From assembly GCA_009701575.1 (NCBI GenBank), contig WLJX01000011.1:1-43565 (forward strand): 43,565 nucleotides of DNA, given 5' to 3'. Positions 17,591 through 30,003 of this stretch are shown here, piece by piece. The notes below the pieces were generated by a model that was not told the DNA's origin, searched no databases, and saw only the letters and a list, made by a program, of their open reading frames with translations. Source of the DNA: Actinomycetota bacterium (GTDB lineage Bacteria; Actinomycetota; Actinomycetes; Nanopelagicales; Nanopelagicaceae). Position numbers and translations under genes: made by a program. Every line of letters starts with the position of its first letter. Within the stretch, counting starts at the first letter, position 1.

Positions 17591-18721
17591 TTAGTCAGCA
17601 ATTGGTACGCCAGTTATCCGAACTCTTGGGTAATAGCCTGGGTCCCCGGTGATTCCTCCGTCAAAGAAATCGTAGGAATCACCAGTACCTTGATATGGAG
17701 TCCAGTTTCCCGTTGCATTGTCTACGCCACCAAATCTGTACCAGACGGTTGTTGGCGAACTCAAATTACCGAATTTGAACCAATATGTAGAAGCACTTGG
17801 GATTGAAACCGAGCCAGTGAAAGTTGCAACGTTATCAGATCCAGAACTCACAATGCTCGAGTATGTCAATGTGCCCAGTTTGCGCGAATCACTATTTGGT
17901 TCCAAAGATCCATCGCTGTAGAAATCAACTGTAGAACCAGAAAGATCCCCGCCCAACAGTGATCCCAATTGTAATTCAACCTTAGTAACAGTTGCCGGAC
18001 TGCTAGATTGAACCTTGAAAGCAATCCATTGAGTTGCGCCACTTGTTAATTGCCAGTTATCAAACCAACCATTGTAATTTTCAACTGCGTTGTCCATTAA
18101 CACGGTTGTAGAACTTGACGTTGGGAATACTCCAGAGTTTGGATTTACTGAACTCTCAATTGTTATGCGATCAACGCTTCCGGCAAATGCGGCATCGCTA
18201 GGCACGCAATCTGTCCAATCAATTGTTACTGAGTTGTTATTTGAAATACCTGTGACTTGATTATCTAAACGCATGCAACTATCAACAGATGTCCAATCAC
18301 CATTGACAATAAATCCAAATTCGAAAGAGTCTTCGTTAGGGGCCGCTGGCCAATACAGCGGTTCATCGTTTCCATTCATATATGCGCGCACCTTGAAGGT
18401 AACGCCAGAACAGTTATCACTAACTCCAGAAACACTTAGGGATGAGAAATAGAAAGTTGACTCGGCGCCATAATATTCATAGCTTCCATTAAAGAAAGTC
18501 GAGGCAGGAGTCAACGTGATTCCATCACTGTCGCAAGCGGTTGTCTGAGCAACGCCTTGACCGAATTCAACAGGTGCACCACCGTTTAGATTTATGCTCG
18601 CAGCTAAGGTTGAACCGAGTGCGATTACACCGACAAGTGCTCCGATGCCAACGAGGATTGCGAGAGACTTCTTTTCTCCGCTGCGTTTAGGCTCAGATTT
18701 ATTGAAATTCAAAAGTGACAT
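17591..18721 (-). CDS. Secreted or surface protein, paralog 1 of 3
   Basis: This is a 376-residue hypothetical protein. After a basic head MSLLNFNKSEPKRSGEKK it has a hydrophobic segment (about residues 20-42) ending ALGSTLAAS, then NGGAPVEFGQGV and QTTACD, all shared with the genes at 18803 and 20237. A beta-rich region to about residue 175 is also homologous, with paired cysteines. The C-terminal half is unique, beta-rich, with many Ser, Thr, Gly and aromatic residues, and looks like an extracellular beta-sandwich; I recognise no family. I chose ATG at 18721 because a -35/-10 pair lies immediately upstream. It is the copy farthest from the tRNA. Confidence 0.75.
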   Translation of the reverse strand: MSLLNFNKSEPKRSGEKKSLAILVGIGALVGVIALGSTLAASINLNGGAPVEFGQGVAQTTACDSDGITLTPASTFFNGSYEYYGAESTFYFSSLSVSGVSDNCSGVTFKVRAYMNGNDEPLYWPAAPNEDSFEFGFIVNGDWTSVDSCMRLDNQVTGISNNNSVTIDWTDCVPSDAAFAGSVDRITIESSVNPNSGVFPTSSSTTVLMDNAVENYNGWFDNWQLTSGATQWIAFKVQSSSPATVTKVELQLGSLLGGDLSGSTVDFYSDGSLEPNSDSRKLGTLTYSSIVSSGSDNVATFTGSVSIPSASTYWFKFGNLSSPTTVWYRFGGVDNATGNWTPYQGTGDSYDFFDGGITGDPGYYPRVRITGVPIAD

Positions 18722-18728
18722 AGTGGAA

Positions 18729-18757
18729 ATTTTATAATCCGTAGTGACAAGTTTCAA
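18729..18757 (-). promoter_or_regulatory. Leaderless promoter of surface-protein paralog 1
   Basis: On the minus strand TTGAAA (18752-18757) and TAAAAT (18729-18734) are separated by exactly 17 bp, and the ATG follows 7 nt after the -10. Paralogs 2 and 3 both have TAACCT 7 nt before their ATG. No Shine-Dalgarno sequence is present at any of the three. Confidence 0.6.
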
Positions 18758-18802
18758 CTCAAACTTTCTCTATCGACCCCGATTTTGAGTAAAAACCGAA
18801 CA

Positions 18803-20044
18803 TCAATATCCGAATACGCCCTTTGTATTATCGAATAGGGCGCTGGCAGTGCTTTGGGAAATGGCTTTGTTATAGACCAAGAATCTGCTCCACCAGAAAT
18901 CACTTAATTGTTCAATGTTGCCAATCGGGCTGGCAGATCCCCCGAGTCCATAATACAAATCATTCCCATATGACACGGAATCATTTTGATTAACTGCGGC
19001 AGTGCCAACAACGTTTCCATCTTGATACCCAGTTAGCGTAGTTCCGTCATAGGTAAATCCAACTAGATGCCAGTTGCCATCCAAAATATTGGTGCTTCCA
19101 ATGACATCTGGAAAATGATCTTGTGAAAAATTCCAAAGCCTGAAGTTTATATATCCGTTAACAATTTCAATTTGTGAGTCATTCCACCCATGACTTGTGT
19201 CTCCGTACTCCACAACGACATTTCCATCAGAAATAGGTTTGATCCAAATAAAAAGTGATTTATCTAATCTGTATGGATTCAAGAAGAAACTACTTAGGTC
19301 CTCAGTTTCAGCAATATTGCCCGGGCCACCAGAATTCAAATGGAGTTGGCCGCCGTTCGCACTTGAAAATTCTGGCGTACCATTTTGGAGATTTAAGCGT
19401 GGGCCGCCTTGTGAATTGCTAATGAAAGTTGTGTACTGGTCAACAGAAACTGTAGCAAGATTGTAATCAGCGATTAATCCATCAGCAATTTGCCCAGTTG
19501 CAACACCGCTACTCTCAATTGTTATTTGATATACCGACTCGGCATCGATAGATGGTGAGTCAAAAGTTAACTTCACTGAACCATCGGATTCACCTTCTGT
19601 TCCATTTCCATCGGTATTTCCATCTGGACTTGAGAAGTTGCCACCCATATCTAGCACGATCGAATAGCTTGGAGTAAGTAGGTTTCCACCTGAGTCATAG
19701 GACTTTATGGTGAAGCTCTTTCCAGCACATCCTTTATCTGTTACATCTGTTTGAGTAGTTCCATCTAGATCAGAGAGCGTAATTGCAGTGAATTTAAAGC
19801 CACTCTCTTCATCATTAGAGAAAGAAGAAATGGGAGTCAGTTTGACTTGGTCGTCACAGGCCGTTGTTTGAGTTACACCTTGACCGAATTCAACTGGGCC
19901 ACCACCATTTAAACTTATACTTGCGGCAAGAGTTGATCCGAGTGCGATTGTTGCAACGAGTGCGCCGATTCCTAAAACTAATTTAAAGGGCTTCTTTGAA
20001 CCAGTGCGCGAAGAACCTGAGGGCTCAAAACCTAGAAGCGACAT
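18803..20044 (-). CDS. Secreted or surface protein with LamG-like lectin domain, paralog 2 of 3
   Basis: This 413-residue protein shares the N-terminus of its neighbours: MSLLGFEPSG, a hydrophobic segment ending ALGSTLAAS, then GGPVEFGQGV and QTTACDD, and a beta-rich region up to an ITIESSGV motif near residue 185. The C-terminal 200 residues look like a concanavalin A/LamG fold, with DKSLFIWIKPIS, WHLVGFTYDGTTLTGYQDG and a final WWSRFLVYNKAIS segment. LamG domains often bind carbohydrate, so a glycan-binding surface role is inferred. A 3'-half tRNA copy lies 82 bp upstream, so this was probably the gene next to the tRNA before the cassette carrying paralog 3 arrived. Confidence 0.78.
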   Translation of the reverse strand: MSLLGFEPSGSSRTGSKKPFKLVLGIGALVATIALGSTLAASISLNGGGPVEFGQGVTQTTACDDQVKLTPISSFSNDEESGFKFTAITLSDLDGTTQTDVTDKGCAGKSFTIKSYDSGGNLLTPSYSIVLDMGGNFSSPDGNTDGNGTEGESDGSVKLTFDSPSIDAESVYQITIESSGVATGQIADGLIADYNLATVSVDQYTTFISNSQGGPRLNLQNGTPEFSSANGGQLHLNSGGPGNIAETEDLSSFFLNPYRLDKSLFIWIKPISDGNVVVEYGDTSHGWNDSQIEIVNGYINFRLWNFSQDHFPDVIGSTNILDGNWHLVGFTYDGTTLTGYQDGNVVGTAAVNQNDSVSYGNDLYYGLGGSASPIGNIEQLSDFWWSRFLVYNKAISQSTASALFDNTKGVFGY

Positions 20045-20126
20045 AGGTATAAGGTTAATGTGTATTTAAAGGTTATATAACTCTCTGAATCGATACTTTA
20101 TGCACGAAGTTAAGTAGCAATTACTC

Positions 20127-20179
20127 AATTTGGTGCCCCCGGTCGGACTCGAACCGACACTGGAAGGATTTTAAGTCCT
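20127..20179 (-). repeat. 3'-half copy of tRNA-Leu(UAA); left attachment-site remnant
   Basis: These 53 bp are identical to 21580-21632. They run from the anticodon stem through the T arm, acceptor 3' strand, CCA and a few bases beyond. The 5' half of the tRNA is absent; the sequence diverges at 20180, so this copy cannot make a tRNA. The 34-bp segment 20146-20179 is the core also found at 21599-21632 and 29017-29050. Confidence 0.9.
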
Positions 20180-21632
20180 GGCTCGAATTTTTGAAATTTA
20201 AAAATATAATAGATGAATTGGTTAATAGACGAAGGGCTAAAAAGCCCGAACTGGCCGGACGTAGTAGGATTCGGTCTTACCGTAGTTGCCCGTGTAATGG
20301 CCACCATTAGGGAAGGACTGGAGCCACGCGAAGGTCGCACCGCTCTCAGACGAGGAGTAGTAGGTCCAAGCTATGAATCCTCCAAGATCATTTGCAGTTC
20401 CAGTTTTTAAGTTACCACTGCTATCACAAGCCACTTTTGGATCACCTGTTGTTTGGCCACTTGCATATTTACATAATTCGTTTAGTTCATTCATTGAAGG
20501 AATAAACCATTGGCCGGGGGCAGAGCCTCCTGCGTAGGCAAGCACTTTGGCTTGGGCGGCAGATGTAGCACCAGCAACTTTCATCACACTGGTGTTGTAA
20601 AAACCTTTGCCGATCTGCCAGTTGGCTTTTTGATCTGAAGAAAAACCTTCGTTATTTCCATTTTGTAAATCTTGCCCAGTGGCGACAGAATCATTGCTCG
20701 ACCATTGATAATAAGTGTCAATTTCAACGATTGCTCCCGCACTTTGCCAGGTGGCAGGTGCAACCTCAAGATATTTGCATTGCGTATCGCAGGTAGAGCC
20801 AGTCGAGGTGAAGAAGTTGGCTGAGACATAGTAAACAATTCCCCCACCAGGTCCACGCTCACCGACTGAATAAGTTACTGGGGTTGATTCTGTTGAATCT
20901 TTGCTCTCAATTGTTATTCGATCAACATCTTGCGCTGATGCCAGTGCCGCACTTGCTGGTGGACCTGCGGTAACCATAGTTACTTTGAAACCAGTCGACA
21001 CATCTTCAATATCGTCTGAAAGCAAGCCTGCCTCAACCAAGCTAAAGCTTCCTTCAGTATCTAGTACTTGGACTTCGCTAAATGGCTCAGATACTCCATC
21101 AGTTGCGTAGAGATCGAGTGGTGAATTATCGCTATTGCTATAGGCCTTAATTGTGAAGGTCTTGCCATAACAGGAAGCTGAAATACCAGTAACTGAGAAT
21201 GAGGTAAATAGGAAATCAGCACTTTCCTCATCATTAACAAATGTTGAGAAAGGAGTAATAGTTACTTCATCATCACAGGAAGTTGTCTGGGTTACACCTT
21301 GACCAAATTCAACAGGCGCGCCAGAATTTAAATTAATGCTTGCGGCAAGAGTTGATCCGAGTGCGATTGATCCGACGAGGGCACCGATTCCTAAAACTAA
21401 TTTCAGGCTCTTCTTTCCACCCTTTGGCTCACGGCCTGAGGGCTCAAAATTGAGAAGTGACATAGCGACAAGGTTAGAGTGTATTTAGGGATTACATAAC
21501 TCCCGTGAGGTCTACTTACTGAACAAACAGTCGGATTTGAGTAAAAACCGATGATGACAATTCAGAATCAGGTGGTTTTAATTTGGTGCCCCCGGTCGGA
21601 CTCGAACCGACACTGGAAGGATTTTAAGTCCT
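20146..21632. mobile_element. Small tRNA-targeted cassette (element 1) carrying surface-protein paralog 3
   Basis: Two copies of the 53-bp tRNA 3'-half repeat lie 1453 bp apart and enclose only one gene, surface paralog 3. This is the signature of integration into the 3' half of a tRNA, where the incoming DNA restores the 3' end. The segment has no integrase, so it would need one supplied in trans. A repeat-mediated tandem duplication of a gene plus tRNA 3'-half unit is the alternative. Confidence 0.55.
20237..21463 (-). CDS. Secreted or surface protein with DUF1566/FISUMP-like C-terminal domain, paralog 3 of 3
   Basis: This 408-residue protein has the shared N-terminus (MSLLNFEPSG, hydrophobic segment ending ALGSTLAAS, PVEFGQGV, QTTSCDD). 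The shared beta region ends near residue 195 at DRITIESKD. The C-terminal 200 residues differ from both neighbours: GPGGGIVYYVS, WFIPSMNELNELCKYA, YYSSSES and a terminal YYVRPVRAF match the DUF1566 / Fibrobacter major-domain pattern, a C-type-lectin-like fold on secreted proteins. The stop overlaps a GGGCT/AGCCC hairpin. TAACCT lies 7 nt before the ATG. It is the sole gene of the cassette between the tRNA copies. Confidence 0.78.
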   Translation of the reverse strand: MSLLNFEPSGREPKGGKKSLKLVLGIGALVGSIALGSTLAASINLNSGAPVEFGQGVTQTTSCDDEVTITPFSTFVNDEESADFLFTSFSVTGISASCYGKTFTIKAYSNSDNSPLDLYATDGVSEPFSEVQVLDTEGSFSLVEAGLLSDDIEDVSTGFKVTMVTAGPPASAALASAQDVDRITIESKDSTESTPVTYSVGERGPGGGIVYYVSANFFTSTGSTCDTQCKYLEVAPATWQSAGAIVEIDTYYQWSSNDSVATGQDLQNGNNEGFSSDQKANWQIGKGFYNTSVMKVAGATSAAQAKVLAYAGGSAPGQWFIPSMNELNELCKYASGQTTGDPKVACDSSGNLKTGTANDLGGFIAWTYYSSSESGATFAWLQSFPNGGHYTGNYGKTESYYVRPVRAF

Positions 21633-21659
21633 CTGTCTCTGCCATTGGACTACGGGGGC
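21584..21659 (-). tRNA. tRNA-Leu(UAA), intact, short variable loop
   Basis: The minus strand folds as a complete cloverleaf: acceptor GCCCCCG with CGGGGGC, a 3-bp D stem, anticodon stem GAGGA/TCCTT (one G-U pair) around loop CTTAAAA giving anticodon UAA, T arm GTCGG-TTCGAGT-CCGAC, A73 and encoded CCA. The variable region is only about 5 nt, whereas leucine tRNAs normally have a long variable arm, so leucine identity rests on the anticodon and A73. A TAGACT box (21675-21680) is 15 nt upstream. This is the only complete copy of three. Confidence 0.88.
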
Positions 21660-21744
21660 GAAGGTAGTGCGAGCAGTCTACTAGGCGTAAAAAGTAGATT
21701 TGCACACCCCTTCAAGCCTTGAATCCAACCATAGATTCAAAATG

Positions 21745-21763
21745 TGTATCCATTTTGTATCCA
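21745..21763 (+). repeat. Candidate arm-type integrase sites, left end of element 2
   Basis: TGTATCCA occurs at 21745-21752 and 21756-21763, an 11-bp period. The surrounding 29 bp (21745-21773, ending TAAAAGT) match 28928-28956 at the other end with three differences, in the same orientation. A perfect inverted repeat TTGAATC/GATTCAA (21719-21725 with 21734-21740) lies between these sites and the tRNA and could bind an accessory factor. Confidence 0.65.
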
Positions 21764-21831
21764 CGCTAAAAGTCAACTTCATATCACTCTCCACAATGGC
21801 ATTCGCCATTGGTATTTGAAATGGAATTGAT

Positions 21832-22953
21832 ATGGCAAAGAAAGCAAATGGTCAGGGTTATACATTTAAAGTAGGCAGTTCTTTCAGAACTGTTATTAAA
21901 CATAATGGTTATGTTGTTACTGCAATGGCAAGAACTGCTCAAGAGTCTAGGCAATTGGCTAAAGCCAAACTCTCCCAACTACCGAGCATAAAGCGAACTC
22001 AAGATTCTGAAAGTCTTGAGAAATTAAAGTTGGCTGATTACTTATTAAATTGGTTAGATAACGAACACAAACACAACATTGCCCATTCAACCTACAAGCG
22101 CTACCGCTCCCTAACTATGAATCACATAAATCCGTCAATAGGCAATTATCAAATTGGAAAGTTGACTCCAAAAATAATCACTTGGTTTCTGTCCCAGATG
22201 AGAAATTCTGGGCAAAGTGTTCGCTCTCTACAACAGGCAAGAGCCCTGCTTTCAATTGCTTTAGGCGAAGCAGAGAACTTAGGTTCTATTCAGTCCAACC
22301 CAGTTAGAAAAGTTAAGAACCCTCAGGGCGCAGAGCGCCAAATTAGCCCACTAACTCTGGAAGAAGTAAAGAGATTACTTAAAACTTATGAAGGAACTTA
22401 TCTATCTGCCCGATTACATCTGGCACTTATATGTGGTTTGAGGCAGGGAGAAGCGCTGGGTTTGCGTTGGCAAGATGTTGATTTAGAGACTGGGCTAATT
22501 CAAATTAGAACTCAGATTCAAATTATTGATGGGAAACAAGCATTTTCAAGTCTTAAGACAGAACGCTCTAGAAGAAGCCTGGTTCTTACCGAGTCAACTA
22601 GAAACGCATTGCTTGCCCATAAGAATCTTGTTGGAGAAATGTTTGTTAAGGCTGATGGTGGTTGGGAAGATTGGGATTTAGTTTTCCCTAGAAATAATGG
22701 AACACCACGTTCTGCCCAAACTGATTATGACGAGTGGCAGAAAGCGCTAAAACTCTGCGGGGTTGCCCCTAAAAGGCTTCACGATGCCCGCCATACCGCT
22801 GCAACTCTTATGTATTCCCAAGGAATAGGAATTGAAACTATCAGTAGGTCGCTTGGACATTCTTCAAGTGCCATTACTTCTCGTCTTTATGTCCATTCGG
22901 CAGAAGAACCGTTAAGAATAGCGGCGTCTGCCCTTGACGCAGTGCTTGATTAA
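21832..22953 (+). CDS. Site-specific tyrosine recombinase (integrase)
   Basis: This 373-residue phage-type integrase has an N-terminal arm-binding region (about residues 1-60), a SAM-like core-binding domain (about 65-165) and the catalytic domain. The catalytic set is complete: Arg204 (LICGLRQGEAL), Lys242 (SLKTERSRRSL), His317 and Arg320 (LHDARHTAATL), His343 (LGHSS) and nucleophile Tyr353 (SRLYVHS). It starts 172 bp from the intact tRNA, the usual place for a tRNA-targeting integrase, and reads away from it. It should act on the 34-bp core repeated at 20146, 21599 and 29017. A weak hairpin with a short T-run lies at 23249-23272. Confidence 0.95.
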   Translation: MAKKANGQGYTFKVGSSFRTVIKHNGYVVTAMARTAQESRQLAKAKLSQLPSIKRTQDSESLEKLKLADYLLNWLDNEHKHNIAHSTYKRYRSLTMNHINPSIGNYQIGKLTPKIITWFLSQMRNSGQSVRSLQQARALLSIALGEAENLGSIQSNPVRKVKNPQGAERQISPLTLEEVKRLLKTYEGTYLSARLHLALICGLRQGEALGLRWQDVDLETGLIQIRTQIQIIDGKQAFSSLKTERSRRSLVLTESTRNALLAHKNLVGEMFVKADGGWEDWDLVFPRNNGTPRSAQTDYDEWQKALKLCGVAPKRLHDARHTAATLMYSQGIGIETISRSLGHSSSAITSRLYVHSAEEPLRIAASALDAVLD

Positions 22954-23332
22954 AGTGCGAATAAGTTGACACGCCCTAGATGCTAAGTTTGCAAGTATCG
23001 AAAAGTAGGAATAAATTAGAACTCTAATGGCGAATGCGACAACTTTGCCCACTGTCGGAACTGGTCGTTCACAGACCCATCAGAAATGGTGAATCCATAT
23101 TTTTGCAGTATTGAAACTGGAGAGGGTTCCTAGAAGTTCGTTCTTGAATGCGATTAAGTTCCATAAGTAATCATTCCTGGGTAGACTCAGTATCCTGGCA
23201 AAGCACCTTTTTGGTTGAGCCAGTTTTCGCACAGGTTGGTCCATTAATCACTTAAATCTTGAGTGCTCTTTTGCGACCCATATTCCAATTAATTATTGCT
23301 GAATTACTACTTCACGAAAAGGAGCATTTGTA
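22954..23332. other. 379-bp gap between integrase and ATPase genes
   Basis: No convincing gene is visible. A 22-codon frame starts at 23027 but has no ribosome binding site or recognisable motif. No obvious excisionase is encoded here. The 3' part contains a weak terminator-like hairpin at 23249-23272, and AAGGAG lies about 9 nt before the ATG at 23333. Confidence 0.5.
23249..23272 (+). terminator. Weak terminator-like hairpin after the integrase
   Basis: A 7-bp stem with one wobble pair (CACTTAA with TTGAGTG, 3-nt loop) is followed by CTCTTTT. It is short and AT-rich, so efficiency is doubtful. Confidence 0.3.
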
Positions 23333-24280
23333 ATGCAAGAAAATTTAATTAAGTCTGTCTGGATTGATGAAAAAACTGATGAACCTACTCCCTGGATTAT
23401 TGACGGACTGGTTTGTCCTTGGTTAACACTTTTGTCAGGACAACCTAAGCACGGTAAGACAACTTTGGCAGGACACATTGTGAACTCACTGTTAAACGGC
23501 ACACCTCTATTCAATAAGGAGGTTAACCAGGGGGCTCACAAAGTAGCCTGGATGGGATATGACGGTGGTTGGAAAGAAGAATTAAGAGAAAGGCTAGAGA
23601 CTTCGGCGAATCGGAACATCATTTTATATGACCCAATTCGCAGCCTTGATGATTCATTGTGGTGGCAACTTGCTTTGGATATGCAAGAGAAAGGCATAAC
23701 CCTATTTGTCCTGGACCATCTATACGGTATGGCTGGAAATCTTGGACTAAATGATGCAAACAACTTCGCTTTGTTAGCAAACTTATTAAGACCAATCTAT
23801 GAAGATTTTGGTATAGCAGTGCTTGTATTGGCGCAAGCAGGTAAGGGTGAAGGTAGTAGAGGTAGGGCAGCGCATTCAGTTGCCCTTGAAGGAGAAGCGA
23901 GGTGTCTGTTACGTCTTTACCAAAAAGGTGCCAACGGTTCACGCCGTTTAGACATATCTTCAAACTCAAGAGGCGATGAATCTCTCCGAATAGTTCTGAC
24001 ACCATTTGAAGTAGGGAGTAAAGAAATTCAAATTAAGGAGCAAGATAAAGCCACTGAGAGAAATAGTCCTGACCTGGTTAGGCAACTACTTCGTGATTGC
24101 AATCCAGAAGAAATGAAGAATTGGTCCAGTGTTGGTAGAGAACTCCATCGGTTAGGTTTTAGTGCGAATGCAAAAGCAGGACGTTCTATGGCTAAGCGAT
24201 TTGGAATTCAAGGCTTACTTAAAACTCAAGGTAAGAAAATTGTGGCGGGAGATTCCTTAGTAATTAGAGAGGTTGCTTAA
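23333..24280 (+). CDS. RepA-like AAA family ATPase (AAA_25 type)
   Basis: This 315-residue P-loop protein has Walker A GQPKHGKTT (residues 36-44) after the typical lead WLTLLSG, Walker B LFVLDH (Asp128), a sensor-like VLVLAQAGKGEGSRGRAAHS and a C-terminal region that may be a winged helix. It resembles the AAA_25 group of hexameric replicative helicases and RecA-like ATPases on plasmids and satellites, where it pairs with a replication initiator; no initiator or primase is visible here. AAGGAG precedes the ATG with good spacing. A role in replication of the excised element is inferred. Confidence 0.75.
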   Translation: MQENLIKSVWIDEKTDEPTPWIIDGLVCPWLTLLSGQPKHGKTTLAGHIVNSLLNGTPLFNKEVNQGAHKVAWMGYDGGWKEELRERLETSANRNIILYDPIRSLDDSLWWQLALDMQEKGITLFVLDHLYGMAGNLGLNDANNFALLANLLRPIYEDFGIAVLVLAQAGKGEGSRGRAAHSVALEGEARCLLRLYQKGANGSRRLDISSNSRGDESLRIVLTPFEVGSKEIQIKEQDKATERNSPDLVRQLLRDCNPEEMKNWSSVGRELHRLGFSANAKAGRSMAKRFGIQGLLKTQGKKIVAGDSLVIREVA

Positions 24281-24608
24281 GGGTGTATTTAATGTACGGG
24301 TGTATTCCTACCCTCTTACTACGTAATTCACCCACCTGGAATACATCATTCCCCGTAGGGGAAGGATTGAGGATGGATATATAAATTAAACATCCGCCTA
24401 CGCTTTTGGGCTTCGGCGAATCTAAATGAGCGGAAGTCCAAAAGCATAGTAATTTAACGATTTCACAATTAACTAACAATAGATTTAACAAGGCGCCTGG
24501 CTCCAAAGCCAGGTGAAAAGTGATTGATTTACATTGATTTTAAATGGAATCAAAGTGCCATTAACCTGAGTTAATCAGTTAACAGATAGGGGGCGGCAGA
24601 CTGACTGC
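24281..24608. repeat. Gap rich in inverted and direct repeats between convergent genes
   Basis: Between the ATPase and protease genes are: a direct repeat GGGTGTATT (24281-24289, 24298-24306); inverted TGTATTCC/GGAATACA (24301-24308 with 24338-24345); TTCCCC/GGGGAA around 3 nt (24349-24363); a 12-bp inverted repeat with one mismatch (24398-24409 with 24438-24449) enclosing CTTCGG/CGGAAG; and CCTGGCT/AGCCAGG (24496-24502 with 24507-24513). None has a clear T-run. The position after a RepA-like gene makes an origin or single-strand structure possible. Confidence 0.5.
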
Positions 24609-26897
24609 CTAGGATGAATTAAGCAATTGCCAATTACTTTGCCATCTACTGCCATCAGGTGCTTCTACCGTCCAGGCAATTGGATTAATCGGACCACCAA
24701 CCGCCCCCACTCCCCACACTTCAGGAACACCACGATTTCCATAAGTTACAGACCAGAGTGCAGGATTTAGAGTGTAAGGACTGAGTTGAAGTGCATCTGC
24801 TGTTGGGTAACCCCAAACACCATTAGCCCTATTATTGACAGCGTCATCTGGTTTAAAACAAACAGCCATCTGAATATCACTGCCCCAATTAAAAGTTTCA
24901 CCGACTCTAGATGCTGTGACACCAGCACGCAAACAATGTGTTGAGTTTGCTGGGAATGCTGAATCTGGAATTGCTTTCAAAATACGGTTGCTGCCAGAGG
25001 TTGAGATACTTAGATTGAAAGACGTTGTTTTTGGAGTCGGAGTCGGAGTCGGAGTTGGTGTTGGTGTGGCACTTGGTGTTGGTGTGGCACTTGGTGTTGG
25101 TGTGGCACTTGGTGTTGGTGTGGCACTTGGTGTTGGTGTTGGTGTCGGTGTTGGTGTTGGTGTTGGTGTTGGTGTTGGTGTCGGTGTTGGTGTTGGTGTT
25201 GCACCTGTAATTAATTTACTTGTATATCCACTTGAAGAACCTGCAATATTTGTAGCCGTTGCCTGACAAATCAAATACTTCCCATTTATAGCGTTTAGTA
25301 TTGATTGGGAAATGGTCAGAGTAGAACCGCTACCTATGAAGTTAGTTAATGAATTAGTGTATGCAGTCCCATAGCCCCACTGGTAACTTACTGTATCGTC
25401 CATATTAAAAAGTGATGCACCGCATTCTGCCACCGTTCCAGCAGTTACTAATGTTGGATACCCCCCTATTCCAGATATATAGGGAGAAGGAGTAGAAGGC
25501 TTGGTTGGAACAGGAAGTTTTACATTCGCCATAACTACTGCAATTCCACCGCTATTTCTTGCAATAATAATGCAAGATAGAGTCTTGCCTGCATAGTTTA
25601 GAATAATCTCATTAGTGATTGGCAAAGTTTTATTAGTGGAAATAACTGGGTTTTTAGCGTCGTAAGTATCTCCACCAAACCATTTGATTTCTTCGGTATC
25701 AGGTTTCTTGTTCCAGGTTATTCCACCACAAGTTGCATCGGTTCCAGGTTTTGCCACTGAATAAGTACTCAAACCGCTAATTGATAGGTAGCCACTGTAA
25801 GTGGGCTTTCCTGGCAATAATACTGAAACCGTTTTTACAACTTCACCATTGTTGCTAGATGCGGTTATCGTGCAAGTCAATTGGGTATCTCGCTCTACTG
25901 AATCTCCTAAATTTAAGGCAGGATTAGTCACATCAGTAAATGTCCAATTCTGATTCGTGCTCCATTTAGTTTCAACTTTGATGGTATTACTTGACCAAGT
26001 TCCTGGGTCACATTGAACCTTGCTGTTGACTGCAGGCGTGCCAGTAATTTTAGGCTCTGTAAGGGCACTAGGCATTGCTCTATTTTGTTTAACTTCATTT
26101 TTAAAGAGCGTGTCCATACCTTCAGAATTAATTTTTGAAATGTAATAAGAAAGGCGCACGTAAATGCTAGGGAAACCTAACTCACAGTCCTCGGCTCCCC
26201 AACTTGTTACACCAACTAGAACAGTCTTAGAACCTAATTTCGCGAATAGTGGTCCACCTGAATCTCCATTGCAGGCACCCGCATAAACTCTCTCTTTGCT
26301 GTTGTATTTGCCGACTGCTATCCAAACGTCTTTTCTCCAACCCTTTATATTCTTCACCCTATTTATCTGGTCATCTACAAATGCACGCTTTATATATGTT
26401 GCTCGCTCTGAATTTTGGTCTTTGCCCCAACCTACAACTTCTAGTTTTACACCTTTTGCTGCAAGAATTTTCTTTATTGCCGCAGAACTAGGAAGTGCAG
26501 TAGTTATTGCACCGCTCAAAGGATTAGTTAGCAGCAATAGACCTATGTCATTTACGCCTTGTCTTTCGCTATATCGCGGGTCGCGCCAAGTGGATGCGAC
26601 TTCCAGCAACGGTGCCTCTTCGTCTAATAAATCCGCACCATATTTTACGTAATAAAAATAAGATTTATCCAGAACGCAGTGAGCGGCTGTTAAAACAATT
26701 CTGTCTTCAATGAGAGTTCCAGAGCAAATGAATTGCGCTATGTCTTCTGCACTTTCCTTTATCCAAATAGAAATAACAGATGGATAAGAATCTGAAGCAT
26801 TCGTTACTTCTTTGCCAAATGTGATTGCGTTACTTGGGGCAGTTATGGGTATTAGAGAAGCGATTGCCAAAGCCACTACAACCAATATCCGCCTCAT
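24609..26897 (-). CDS. Secreted S1-family serine protease with Ig-like repeats and Thr-Pro linker
   Basis: This is a 762-residue exported protein. The signal peptide ends near SNA (about residue 24). The trypsin-fold domain (about 26-265) has the full triad: His73 in LTAAHC, Asp117 in NDIGLLLL and Ser213 in GDSGGP. The residue six before Ser213 is Gly207, not Asp, so trypsin-like Arg/Lys preference is not expected. Three Ig-like or Ig-fold repeats follow (about 275-560), each with a cysteine pair. A Thr-Pro linker comes next, then a C-terminal domain of about 120 residues that I do not recognise. It is probably surface-acting or released, and is cargo of element 2. Confidence 0.85.
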   Translation of the reverse strand: MRRILVVVALAIASLIPITAPSNAITFGKEVTNASDSYPSVISIWIKESAEDIAQFICSGTLIEDRIVLTAAHCVLDKSYFYYVKYGADLLDEEAPLLEVASTWRDPRYSERQGVNDIGLLLLTNPLSGAITTALPSSAAIKKILAAKGVKLEVVGWGKDQNSERATYIKRAFVDDQINRVKNIKGWRKDVWIAVGKYNSKERVYAGACNGDSGGPLFAKLGSKTVLVGVTSWGAEDCELGFPSIYVRLSYYISKINSEGMDTLFKNEVKQNRAMPSALTEPKITGTPAVNSKVQCDPGTWSSNTIKVETKWSTNQNWTFTDVTNPALNLGDSVERDTQLTCTITASSNNGEVVKTVSVLLPGKPTYSGYLSISGLSTYSVAKPGTDATCGGITWNKKPDTEEIKWFGGDTYDAKNPVISTNKTLPITNEIILNYAGKTLSCIIIARNSGGIAVVMANVKLPVPTKPSTPSPYISGIGGYPTLVTAGTVAECGASLFNMDDTVSYQWGYGTAYTNSLTNFIGSGSTLTISQSILNAINGKYLICQATATNIAGSSSGYTSKLITGATPTPTPTPTPTPTPTPTPTPTPTPSATPTPSATPTPSATPTPSATPTPTPTPTPTPKTTSFNLSISTSGSNRILKAIPDSAFPANSTHCLRAGVTASRVGETFNWGSDIQMAVCFKPDDAVNNRANGVWGYPTADALQLSPYTLNPALWSVTYGNRGVPEVWGVGAVGGPINPIAWTVEAPDGSRWQSNWQLLNSS
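25033..25200 (-). repeat. Thr-Pro-encoding tandem repeats with four 18-bp units
   Basis: This stretch encodes the protease linker of alternating Thr and Pro with SATPTP variants. An 18-bp unit beginning GGCACTTGG (plus strand) is repeated four times with starts at 25068, 25086, 25104 and 25122, embedded in GGTGTT hexamers. All unit lengths are multiples of three, so copy-number slippage would lengthen or shorten the linker in frame. Confidence 0.9.
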
Positions 26898-26940
26898 AGG
26901 GCTAGGTTACTCAACACAACAACTTTTACCTACGCTTAGA

Positions 26941-27126
26941 TTATTTCCATCTTGCCCTGACTCCATCTGAAGTGCACTTAAGTCCAGTGTGGTTATGACC
27001 GATAGCCGCTTTAGGGCAGAACTGACCACGCTTGGGAGTTTTGTGAATGACTCCGTTATGCGCAATGGCAGGTGTTGATACCAAAATCAAACTAGAAGCG
27101 AGAATTACTCCACATAATTTCTTCAT
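26941..27126 (-). CDS. Small secreted cysteine-containing protein
   Basis: This 61-residue protein has a clear signal peptide (MKKLCGVILASSLILVSTPAIA, cleaved near residue 22). The mature peptide of about 39 residues has two cysteines and ends in GLKCTSDGVRARWK, the kind of C-terminal Cys-Gly-Trp-Lys pattern seen in small actinobacterial surface modules. No function can be assigned. The start overlaps the upstream stop by one base (TGATG), so it is coupled to the zinc-ribbon membrane gene. Confidence 0.65.
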   Translation of the reverse strand: MKKLCGVILASSLILVSTPAIAHNGVIHKTPKRGQFCPKAAIGHNHTGLKCTSDGVRARWK

Positions 27127-27413
27127 CAGATTTCCTTTGCATTCTTGAGAAAATTGAATTTACAAGTTGGGCATACAGTTAGTCCTTTTTTAACTCTATT
27201 TCCACAACCAGGGCATTGTCGCTGTTTACTACCAGTAACTCTATAAATAACATAAAGAAATGTATTTAAAATCGCTAACCAAAAAATTAAAAACATAAAA
27301 CTTAAACCAATTACAGTATCGCTATCATTTGAGTCGTAACTCATAAAGAAATTAATGAAGAAGTACGCATTTAAGACAATTATGACCCACCCCATAGGGC
27401 GTATATTTTTCAT
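27126..27413 (-). CDS. Two-helix membrane protein with C-terminal zinc ribbon
   Basis: This 95-residue protein has hydrophobic helices at about residues 8-23 and 33-58, followed by a cytoplasmic zinc ribbon: CPGCG, then a spacer of about ten residues and CPTCKF. Four cysteines in two CxxC knuckles suggest zinc binding. The family is unknown to me. It overlaps the next gene by one base and is part of the minus-strand cargo of element 2. Confidence 0.65.
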   Translation of the reverse strand: MKNIRPMGWVIIVLNAYFFINFFMSYDSNDSDTVIGLSFMFLIFWLAILNTFLYVIYRVTGSKQRQCPGCGNRVKKGLTVCPTCKFNFLKNAKEI

Positions 27414-27454
27414 AATTTATTATAGAACTCTCAACCTGGAAGTAAATGGTCTAT

Positions 27455-27811
27455 CTATTTTTTCTTTTTTATCCGCTCACTTACAGAGCCATCCCAATCA
27501 TCTTGAGTCGCCACAACTACGTCATCTCCAGCCTGCCATTCAACTTTAAATCTATCGTCTGCCCAATTGTCCTTGTAGTTCCCTTTCAGCAAGACCCAGC
27601 CAACCTTTTCCCGAAGTGGGATATAGATTCCTTCCCATAATTGAACTCGGTCCATAAATTCAAGTCGGTTAGGAGCGATGTGAGCATACTCATTTGCGTA
27701 TTCTTGGGCAGCAACTTTATTTTCAATAAATTCATTAAAACTCAAGAGTAACTTTCCAGCACTTTGCTTCAATACTTGAACCTTAGGTTCCTTTGCACCA
27801 AAAAATCCCAT
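27455..27811 (-). CDS. Hypothetical protein, 118 residues
   Basis: This is a soluble protein beginning MGFFGAKEPKVQVLKQSAG, rich in charged and aromatic residues, ending in a basic run RIKKKK. I recognise no family. A GTG at 27826 would add five residues; I chose ATG at 27811 because it gives a normal N-terminus. Neither start has a clear ribosome binding site. The composition resembles a small cytoplasmic beta-alpha protein. It lies in the minus-strand block of element 2. Confidence 0.5.
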   Translation of the reverse strand: MGFFGAKEPKVQVLKQSAGKLLLSFNEFIENKVAAQEYANEYAHIAPNRLEFMDRVQLWEGIYIPLREKVGWVLLKGNYKDNWADDRFKVEWQAGDDVVVATQDDWDGSVSERIKKKK

Positions 27812-27899
27812 ATCAAAAAATAGCACTAATGCGAATGTAGTTAGAGGAATATTGCAGAAAATCTGAACTTGATTTCACTGAATTAACCCAGGCTAAATA

Positions 27900-28373
27900 T
27901 TAGTAACATCGGATTTCCGCAACATCAAGTCCGCCAAAACTTGTTTCTGCTGGTGTTGTAAACTGAAATGTTAATTTAGCAACTTGTAAAGGCTGCAAAC
28001 TTGGCAAAGTTTCATTTGTATAGTCAACTACTGCCTCGGATTTATCCTTCCAATTGATTGCCGCATAGAATCCACTTGGGCAACCATTTTTACTAATGAA
28101 AGAATATTGAAAGCAATAAGTAAAACTAGGGGTGCAGGTTTGTTTAGGAAAACTCCAGGCAAGTGAATCTGAATATTGAATGTACTCATTTGGAATCCAA
28201 GAAGTATCTGCTTCTGCAGCAACACTAGGCGATGACGCTGAACCTGAATTATCGGGGGTGGTAGTTTCTGATTGCATCATAAAGAAACCAATTAATACGG
28301 TCACTACCAATGCTGCAATTAAGTTCTGCTTGGTTTTCCTATCAATTTTTTCCCAATAGTCTCTAGGATTCAT
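27900..28373 (-). CDS. Membrane-anchored hypothetical protein
   Basis: This 157-residue protein has a basic head (MNPRDYWEKIDRKTKQ), one hydrophobic helix at about residues 17-33, a low-complexity Ser/Thr/Pro linker and an extracytoplasmic beta-rich domain with four cysteines (TCTPSFTYC, NGCPSG, EIRCY), likely two disulfides. No family is recognised. It is divergent from the small secreted gene at 28543 across a 169-bp gap with no other gene in it. Confidence 0.55.
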   Translation of the reverse strand: MNPRDYWEKIDRKTKQNLIAALVVTVLIGFFMMQSETTTPDNSGSASSPSVAAEADTSWIPNEYIQYSDSLAWSFPKQTCTPSFTYCFQYSFISKNGCPSGFYAAINWKDKSEAVVDYTNETLPSLQPLQVAKLTFQFTTPAETSFGGLDVAEIRCY

Positions 28374-28542
28374 TTAGACAGACTAGCCCTTGTTGGCAAT
28401 AGAAGAAAGCCTTTATCCACGAACGTGCAAAACTTTATAACAGAAAATTTTTGTCTGACTGTATACATATAAGCCACGCTCAAATTAAATAACCCTGGGT
28501 CAAAACCTTCTAAACACTGCCTAATTAGCCTAGCCTTTCGGA

Positions 28543-28785
28543 ATGAAAGATATAAAGAATTACCTAATCGCAATACTCGCGGGACTTCTAGTCCTCACGC
28601 TCTCAACACATTCAGCGCAAAGCGCTCCTAAACAATATGATGCTGTGAAACTTGCCGAATATTCCACCTGTTTAAACGGTATTTATGACTTAACCAACTT
28701 GCAAAAATCCGCCGATGGAAGACTCTCTCGTTCAGATATTGATACTGATGGTGCCATCTATCAATGCAGGTTACTAAGACCATAA
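28543..28785 (+). CDS. Small secreted protein, 80 residues
   Basis: The signal peptide (MKDIKNYLIAILAGLLVL, cleaved near HSAQSA) is followed by a mature part of about 53 residues with two cysteines (YSTCLNG and YQCRLL). The motif RSDIDTDGAIYQC resembles an EF-hand-like or excalibur-type Asp-rich loop, but too little is present to claim either. It is the last gene before the right end of element 2. The 230 bp between it and the tRNA fragment hold only the arm-type repeats. Confidence 0.5.
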   Translation: MKDIKNYLIAILAGLLVLTLSTHSAQSAPKQYDAVKLAEYSTCLNGIYDLTNLQKSADGRLSRSDIDTDGAIYQCRLLRP

Positions 28786-28927
28786 TTAACTTGCTGCTCT
28801 ACTTAGTATCAAACACAAGCAGAGACAGAGGAATCAAAGTAGGAGCACTAGCGAATACTTGGATTTAGGCTATGAGGCTTAGACTATAGGGATAACCTCA
28901 TAGCCAACTTTAAATCCACTTGGATTA

Positions 28928-28946
28928 TGTATCCATTGTGTATCCA
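28928..28946 (+). repeat. Candidate arm-type integrase sites, right end of element 2
   Basis: TGTATCCA occurs at 28928-28935 and 28939-28946, the same 11-bp period and orientation as the pair at 21745-21763. In the circular form the two pairs would flank the tRNA-derived core on both sides, as P and P' arms do in phage attP sites. Confidence 0.65.
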
Positions 28947-29016
28947 CTGTAAAAGTGGTGGTTGTAATTAGCCTGATTTAGCGGGAGAATTTACGCACGA
29001 AAGTGTTTAAGAAGTT

Positions 29017-29077
29017 GACTCGAACCGACACTGGAAGGATTTTAAGTCCTCTGTCTCTGCCATTGGACTACGGGGGC
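29017..29077 (-). repeat. 5'-part copy of tRNA-Leu(UAA); right attachment site
   Basis: These 61 bp equal 21599-21659 exactly and hold the acceptor 5' strand, D arm, anticodon arm and T arm into its 3' strand. The 3' acceptor strand and CCA are missing, so this copy is not a working tRNA. A TAGACT box lies 16 nt upstream at 29094-29099, overlapping the last codons of ppx, which marks this as the original chromosomal promoter end. Confidence 0.9.
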
Positions 29078-29091
29078 CAATTAGGAAAGCG

Positions 29092-30003
29092 TCAGTCTAG
29101 TGCCCAAGCCATTCCATCCAAAATATCGGATTCAGATGCAACAAATTCAGTTGCTCCGGTCGCAATCATTACTCTGGATAAAACAAGTGATCCTGCTGTG
29201 ATTACATCTACGCGGCCTGGATGCATATAACCAAGTGCTGCTATTTGTTCACGAGACATAAGCGAGAACATCTGTGCAATTTCAATAACTTTTGCCGCTG
29301 GGATACGCGATAGATGAATTGCATGTCTGTCGTATTCGCTAAGTCCAAGTGCGGCGGCTGCAACAGTTGTTGCGGTGCCTGCAACTGCAATTAAAGTTTT
29401 GGCTTCTTTAATTGGAACTATGTATGCTGCTTCAGCGATTGCATCATCAATATCTGCAATGGCCTTTTGAACTGCAAGTGGATCTTGTGGTGCTTTGTTC
29501 AAATGTCGTTCGGACATTCGGACGCAACCAATATTTACTGACTTTGCATATTCAACATCGGTTGTACCGAGAACAAACTCAGTTGAACCGCCGCCGATAT
29601 CAACTACGAGGTACGGAGATTCGGTGTGAACTAAACCTTTTGTGGCGCCCATAAAAGATAGTGCGGCTTCTTCAGTTCCTGGAATAACTTCTGGTTCGAT
29701 CCCAAGGATTTCACGAACACCGTCAATAAATAAATCGCGATTACTTGCATCTCGGGTGGCGGATGTCGCACAGAAGCGAATTTTTTCTACACCTTTGCTT
29801 GCAATTATTTCGGCATATTTTCTTGTGACTTCAAGTGTGCGTTCGATAGCTTCTGGATCGAATTTTCCAGTTGCATCAACGCCTTGGCCAAGTCGAACAA
29901 TTTCCATCTCTCTGGTGATCTCCTGGAAATTATCGCCAGTGATATCTGCGATTAAGAGTCGGATTGAATTAGTTCCACAATCAATTGCGGCTACACGACT
30001 CAT
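29092..30003 (-). CDS. ppx: Ppx/GppA family exopolyphosphatase
   Basis: This 303-residue protein of the ASKHA fold hydrolyses polyphosphate or pppGpp. Phosphate-binding motifs are AAIDCGTNSIRLLIAD at the N-terminus and VVDIGGGSTEFVLG in the middle, with the third loop at VAGTATTVAA. It is the short form without the C-terminal HD domain, as usual in actinobacteria. It overlaps the DUF501 gene by 4 bp. Its last codons contain the -10 box of the tRNA that originally followed it. Confidence 0.92.
   Translation of the reverse strand: MSRVAAIDCGTNSIRLLIADITGDNFQEITREMEIVRLGQGVDATGKFDPEAIERTLEVTRKYAEIIASKGVEKIRFCATSATRDASNRDLFIDGVREILGIEPEVIPGTEEAALSFMGATKGLVHTESPYLVVDIGGGSTEFVLGTTDVEYAKSVNIGCVRMSERHLNKAPQDPLAVQKAIADIDDAIAEAAYIVPIKEAKTLIAVAGTATTVAAAALGLSEYDRHAIHLSRIPAAKVIEIAQMFSLMSREQIAALGYMHPGRVDVITAGSLVLSRVMIATGATEFVASESDILDGMAWALD

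Follow-up and report, generated by a model that had tools for sequence, protein, structure and literature searches.

Insertion at tRNA genes is common, and replacement of both halves of a single tRNA gene is rare. The Islander catalogue assigns a 5′ tDNA fragment to 159 of 3,919 islands and also includes tandem islands (PMC4383910). In archaea, pTN3-like integrative elements replace the 5′ half of a tRNA gene, which is then driven by the promoter of the element, that of the integrase (PMC8371274). Integrase-less cassettes, or cis-mobilizable elements, have been reported in Dehalococcoides, in which 15 ssrA islands lack an integration module (PMC3146451), and among the additive islands of Actinomarinales (PMC7771536). 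Tycheposons, as described in PMC10872708, share with the elements studied here a tyrosine recombinase, a bordering tRNA, and a streamlined aquatic bacterium as the host; they differ in that the elements studied here span ~1.5 to 13 kb and reside at tRNA-Leu(UAA) or tRNA-Tyr, and in that the part swapped by one of them, element A, is the 5′ half.

We analyzed a 43.5-kb window (the whole stretch of DNA considered here, 43,565 nucleotides) in which a tRNA-Leu(UAA) gene is located between element A and a cassette designated B. Similar to the Islander 5′-fragment islands, A combines a tyrosine integrase with an intact tRNA gene and, upstream, a displaced 5′ fragment. Unlike these islands, the locus has a 3′-replacing cassette across the same tRNA gene, both halves of which appear to be element borne, and the integrase belongs to a clade that includes close 3′-replacing relatives. 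Element A resembles the pTN3-like elements in replacing the 5′ half of the tRNA gene and differs from them in that its integrase is bacterial, the integrase gene is not split by integration, and the element retains a copy of the native −10 hexamer. Cassette B, like those of Dehalococcoides and Actinomarinales, is bounded by repeats of an RNA gene (tRNA or tmRNA) and stands in tandem at a single-copy RNA gene, but it contains one surface protein gene and adjoins a 5′-replacing element. A first-pass annotation of this DNA had called such an assembly unusual, which is fair, although 5′-fragment islands and tandem islands both have precedents in Islander.

Features of the tRNA-Leu(UAA) locus, with positions in the window
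Feature	Position	Strand	Description
surf0	17591..18757	-	Secreted/surface protein gene, 388 aa
surf1	18803..20044	-	Secreted/surface protein gene, Laminin_G_3 C-terminal domain
TTTATGCACGAAGTTAAGTAGCAATTACTCAATT	20097..20130	+	Flank of left remnant; likely marks older insertion C
Left remnant	20131..20179	-	tRNA-Leu(UAA) positions 28-76, displaced 3′ half, 49/49 identical
Cassette B	20180..21632		1.45 kb, integrase-less; predicted source of the 3′ half of the intact tRNA
surf2	20237..21463	-	Surface protein gene of cassette B, Lcl_C domain
tRNA-Leu(UAA)	21584..21659	-	Only intact copy found; 3′ half predicted from B, 5′ half from A
Element A	21633..29050		7.4 kb core to core; 5′-half-replacing integrative element
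TAGACT	21675..21680	-	-10-like hexamer at -21 relative to the tRNA, borne by A
GTATCCATTTTGTATCCA	21746..21763	+	Arm-type doublet, int-proximal end of A
Integrase	21832..22953	+	Tyrosine integrase of A, 373 aa, reading frame intact
AAA_25 ATPase	23333..24280	+	RepA/DnaB-like cargo of A
Trypsin-like protein	24609..26897	-	Secreted, cargo of A, with proline/threonine repeat tract
Four small ORFs	27126..28785		Cargo of A: 95, 123, 157, and 80 aa
Degenerate R1 copy	28802..28923	+	20.8 bits
GTATCCATTGTGTATCCA	28929..28946	+	Arm-type doublet, int-distal end of A
TTTACGCACGAA	28990..29001	+	Terminus motif of the element family
Right remnant	29017..29077	-	Displaced 5′ half (tRNA positions 1-61, 61/61 identical), 14 bp from ppx stop
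ppx	29092..30003	-	Exopolyphosphatase; conserved neighbor of the tRNA 5′ end

Three copies of a 34-bp core (20146-20179, 21599-21632, and 29017-29050) are 100% identical, with start-to-start distances of 1,453 and 7,418 bp. The number of exact 34-mers expected to be shared by chance in the 43.5-kb window is ~5e-12, and a chance origin of the repeats is excluded. ARAGORN and Rfam revealed a single tRNA in the window, the 76-nt tRNA-Leu(UAA) that overlaps the middle core; it has a class-I shape and a perfect acceptor stem. Among the 30 tRNAs detected in the assembly, which is 79% complete, this is the only UAA leucine tRNA, the remaining leucine tRNAs being CAA, UAG, and GAG. Thus, the first-pass annotation had correctly placed the identical cores, the partial left (3′) and right (5′) copies, and the complete middle copy, and its identification of the latter as the sole intact tRNA-Leu(UAA) gene holds for this assembly.

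The integrase of element A matches PF00589 (3.5e-25) and phrog_1 (7.4e-63). Arm-type doublets, searched for as the regular expression GTAT..A, 2 to 7 bases, GTAT, occur exactly twice in the window, at 21746 and 28929, i.e., at both ends of A. Since the pattern was drawn up after viewing these ends, other elements provide the independent test: doublets are present at both ends of the elements of G022, G284, and G222, with an additional match elsewhere in G222 and a few other loci. The 5′ half located on the ppx side (right remnant) is the chromosomal one, indicating that A is the source of the functional 5′ half and of the region upstream of it. The A-borne TAGACT hexamer at −21 has a native counterpart 22 nt before the tRNA, within the last codons of ppx, and this hexamer recurs at −20 to −22 in the native sites examined. 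Element A thus supplies the 5′ half of the tRNA together with a promoter-like hexamer, and transcription would start within the element. In terms of the Islander definition of an island, A displays an intact tRNA gene and a cognate displaced fragment in the correct configuration and orientation, an internal tyrosine integrase, and an empty site in relatives; it also has the 5′ half and upstream promoter region expected of a 5′-half-replacing element. A therefore belongs to a rare type of tyrosine-integrase element, in which the target tRNA receives a new 5′ half and promoter. A viral origin was considered and rejected, since no relatives of the AAA protein were found in viral contigs and phage integrases match at only ~28 to 30%.

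Sites empty of A, with an intact tRNA 17 bp from ppx, were found in five relatives of the same genus (G014, G010, G007, G020, and G019). A sixth genome, G022, carries an A-type element alone, with the same termini, different cargo, and an integrase that is 93% identical. The order in G022 is tRNA, integrase, then, 10.3 kb further, tRNA positions 1 to 57 (the right remnant), followed by ppx. Alignment of the window with G022 showed ~90% identity on both outer sides, 89% over the tRNA and integrase (21574-22910), and ~90% from 28819 onwards; the element termini are about 89 to 90% identical and most of the cargo differs, although the 80-aa cargo ORF has a homologue in the G022 element. The 22 nt upstream of the tRNA in the G022 element (CAATTAGGAAGTGGTCAGTCTA) correspond to the version on the chromosomes of G007 and G010 rather than to that of G022 itself, which suggests that this stretch was captured from the ppx-tRNA junction of a relative. 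Relatives devoid of one or both insertions, called for by the first-pass annotation, thus exist as empty sites and as the single insertion of G022, and its proposal that the 7.4-kb piece is an insertion supplying the 5′ half and promoter agrees with these sites and with the promoter-like TAGACT. In contrast, its predicted ancestral order of ppx, tRNA, and surface protein gene did not hold, since in the closest empty sites the tRNA is followed by a gene (TspO-like or other) or by unrelated sequence.

Between its cores, cassette B contains surf2 and no integrase gene, and thus lacks the integrase of its own that defines an island. The arm-doublet scan of the 43.5-kb window detected no arm sites in B, and its ends do not have the termini found in other cassettes; homologous or illegitimate recombination could therefore have placed B. 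No close match to B itself was found in relatives or other genomes. Its left boundary falls at tRNA position 28, and the displaced 3′ halves of integrase-bearing elements begin at positions 26, 27, 27, and 27. In five other genomes (G254, G216, G171, G271, and G162), cassettes without an integrase lie between 3′ remnants and the tRNA; among these genomes, only G162 contains an integrase match at the 1e-60 limit of the homologue search. In G216, two tandem cassettes are bounded by tRNA 3′ remnants, one of them with a nearly full-length surf2 homologue (34%). As in a cis-mobilizable element (CIME), flanking cores, which are putative att sites, enclose neither integrase nor transfer genes in B. 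The topology of B is evident, and the parallel cassettes suggest that it is mobile and may have been inserted by an integrase acting in trans. The first-pass annotation had considered B a mobile element; this fits the integrase-less surface-gene cassettes at the same tRNA but not an autonomous element, as B has neither integrase nor arm sites.

The left flank, TTTATGCACGAAGTTAAGTAGCAATTACTCAATT, is identical at 32 of 34 positions to the sequence that immediately adjoins the intact tRNA in G019, and it resembles the int-distal TTTACGCACGAA terminus of 3′-replacing elements. This flank is probably an element terminus and not virgin chromosome, marking an insertion, C, older than B. If so, at least three insertions are likely, and the locus is probably a triple insertion. 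The two tandem elements of the first-pass annotation are therefore retained as A and B, but the surface-gene side left of the remnant appears to be an older third insertion.

We consider it very probable that A swapped the 5′ half of the tRNA, that B swapped the 3′ half, and that the older insertion C lies to the left. According to this scheme, a single tRNA-Leu(UAA) gene downstream of ppx would be the site at which a family of tyrosine-integrase elements integrates, with crossover inside the tRNA, most likely in the anticodon stem-loop. The att site of A carries tRNA positions 1 to 61 and the upstream promoter-like region; as the sequence and the relatives show, integration of A brought a new 5′ half and promoter to the chromosome, and the former 5′ half was shifted toward ppx. 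The present 3′ half would have come from B, the surface-gene cassette devoid of an integrase, which would have displaced leftward the prior one; the latter bears the terminus of C, apparently an element older still. The core copies do not differ in their overlap, so any pairwise recombination is predicted to restore the same 76-nt tRNA. In silico excision of A, of B, or of both gave this sequence at crossover points 32, 35, 38, and 50, in agreement with the earlier proposal that loss of either element restores a working tRNA. The UUA-decoding gene should thus survive every excision, and the tRNA of the window is chimeric by descent and not by sequence. We infer that the elements are mobile at present.

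Other histories would have to account for the same boundaries. The three-copy layout could reflect a single 8.9-kb element that brought a complete replacement tRNA-Leu in one insertion, the remnants being its ends and the middle gene its cargo. This requires just two boundaries, and the element of G162 appears to bear both tRNA halves at its ends. However, the same integrase module and right end occur in G022 without a left remnant and with the intact tRNA immediately at the int-proximal end, one arm doublet of the window adjoins the middle tRNA and not the left remnant, and integrase-less cassettes occur independently in several genomes, all of which make a single element very improbable. An assembly artefact joining strain variants appears equally remote. 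The source assembly is fragmented and 79% complete, misassembly at repeats of 49 to 61 bp is conceivable, and the contigs of several relatives stop at or close to this tRNA; yet repeats of this size are short, the separate assembly of G022 confirms both ends of A, and layouts of these kinds are also found in G162 and G284, each of which is a single contig.

For cassette B, tandem duplication or homologous recombination among paralogous surface genes could have dragged the tRNA 3′ end along. The absence of integrase and arm sites from B fits this origin, as does the similarity of the N-terminal DNA of surf0, surf1, and surf2 (70 to 77% identical, with 77% between surf1 and surf2). Against it, the paralogues are ~75% identical and the tRNA remnant 100%, and the left boundary at position 28 sits beside the 26 and 27 boundaries of integrase-made remnants. 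Simple tandem duplication was ruled out by this tRNA identity and by the unrelated C-terminal domains of surf1 (Laminin_G_3) and surf2 (Lcl_C). We judge a recombinational origin of B unlikely and retain its insertion as a cassette. The three tandem surface genes (17591-21463), including surf0, for which NCBIfam gave no match, combine a conserved N-terminal region with differing C-terminal parts, which suggests C-terminal swapping.

The integrase family contains both types of replacement. In G284 and G222, which represent the standard type, a displaced 3′ half lies beside the integrase and the intact tRNA is at the far end; G290 and G224 also have the 3′ half on the integrase side. In the window, G022, and G142, the far end holds the 5′ half alone. 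In the integrase tree, built without G280 (too long a branch as an outgroup), the window and G022 group with the 3′-type integrase of G313, located at tRNA-Tyr (support 96/97), inside a group of 3′ types. A single clade of the six 5′-labeled rows was rejected (p-AU 2e-8), the labels of G131 and G139 being based on the int-proximal side only and the tRNAs of G162 being full length at both ends. One integrase family thus holds both 5′- and 3′-replacing elements, which are not sorted into single clades. Integrases of this family were also observed beside an apparent tRNA-Tyr 3′ half at L081 (G313) and L087 (G168), indicating that the family has shifted its target tRNA. CPxGYKKK gene ends beside the cores were rejected as an attachment motif, since G153 and G162 contain the motif at 7 to 9 sites genome-wide.

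In other genera, the halves of tRNA-Leu(UAA) differ in sequence in G162 (middle copy, L089), G131 (L073), and G139 (L093), and these chimeric tRNAs have a C6:C67 mismatch and a G7:U66 pair in the acceptor stem. Replacement of the 5′ half in these genomes would have yielded tRNAs with halves from different lineages. The complete genome of G162 also has three copies, arranged in a manner comparable to that of the window. A second full-length UAA copy is present in G131 and G162; among the matches found for G139, there was no other full UAA gene. The tRNA-Leu(UAA) and tRNA-Leu(CAA) genes are 74 to 76 nt long with no long variable arm, and tRNA-Leu(UAG) and tRNA-Leu(GAG) of the same genome are 84 to 85 nt. 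Short UAA and CAA leucine tRNAs are widespread in the class (the window, L004, and class relatives), and a short variable arm was discarded as a mark of element-specific tRNAs since class-I size is shared by intact UAA tRNAs throughout the family and class.

In 18 genomes (L118-L135), the strand opposite the intact tRNA bears R1, a conserved 118-nt structured element, at a distance of 79 to 114 bp from the tRNA 3′ end. R1 mimics the 5′ half of the tRNA and occurs at element ends. Its first part copies tRNA positions 8 to 31, and two hairpins take the place of the anticodon loop. Changes on both sides were found for 21 of 35 pairs, with a covariation score of 0.262 versus 0.05 to 0.085 for slid controls, in an alignment fitted to the proposed structure and for which single-sequence folds were mostly no stronger than shuffles. 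No Rfam family covers R1, and none was found outside the family in a class-wide sample. In most cases, the mimic matches the local tRNA more closely than it does other tRNA types (on average 3.3 versus 4.5 mismatches), and that of G162 fits the native tRNA type and not the element-borne 5′ half. The degenerate copy in the window contains an inverted copy of tRNA positions 18 to 31 (28819-28832). R1 copies or truncated R1 5′ halves distant from tRNA-Leu(UAA) were observed in L159 (10734-11508) and L148 (10713-11880); in the case of the truncated copies, the end of a gene for a secreted protein comes next.

As a tentative and rather speculative extension, tRNA-Leu(UAA) may be the hub of an array of surface-gene cassettes in Nanopelagicales-like bacteria, in which autonomous elements would swap either half, integrase-less cassettes would be moved in trans, R1, next to the attachment site, could act in recombination or control, and some swaps would generate lineage-chimeric, mismatched UUA-decoding tRNAs. 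UUA accounts for ~22% of the leucine codons in the core genes of the window, and the only tRNA found to decode it appears to have been rebuilt from two inserted pieces, one providing the front half and promoter and the other the back half. This gene would thus serve as a plug-in site on both sides, each half having been exchanged for a mobile copy, and in relatives such exchange would yield tRNAs of mixed lineage with a broken acceptor pair. The intermixing of 5′ and 3′ types in one integrase family makes the switch of the swapped half a tractable evolutionary question, and in freshwater actinobacteria the locus is also a hotspot of surface-protein genes.
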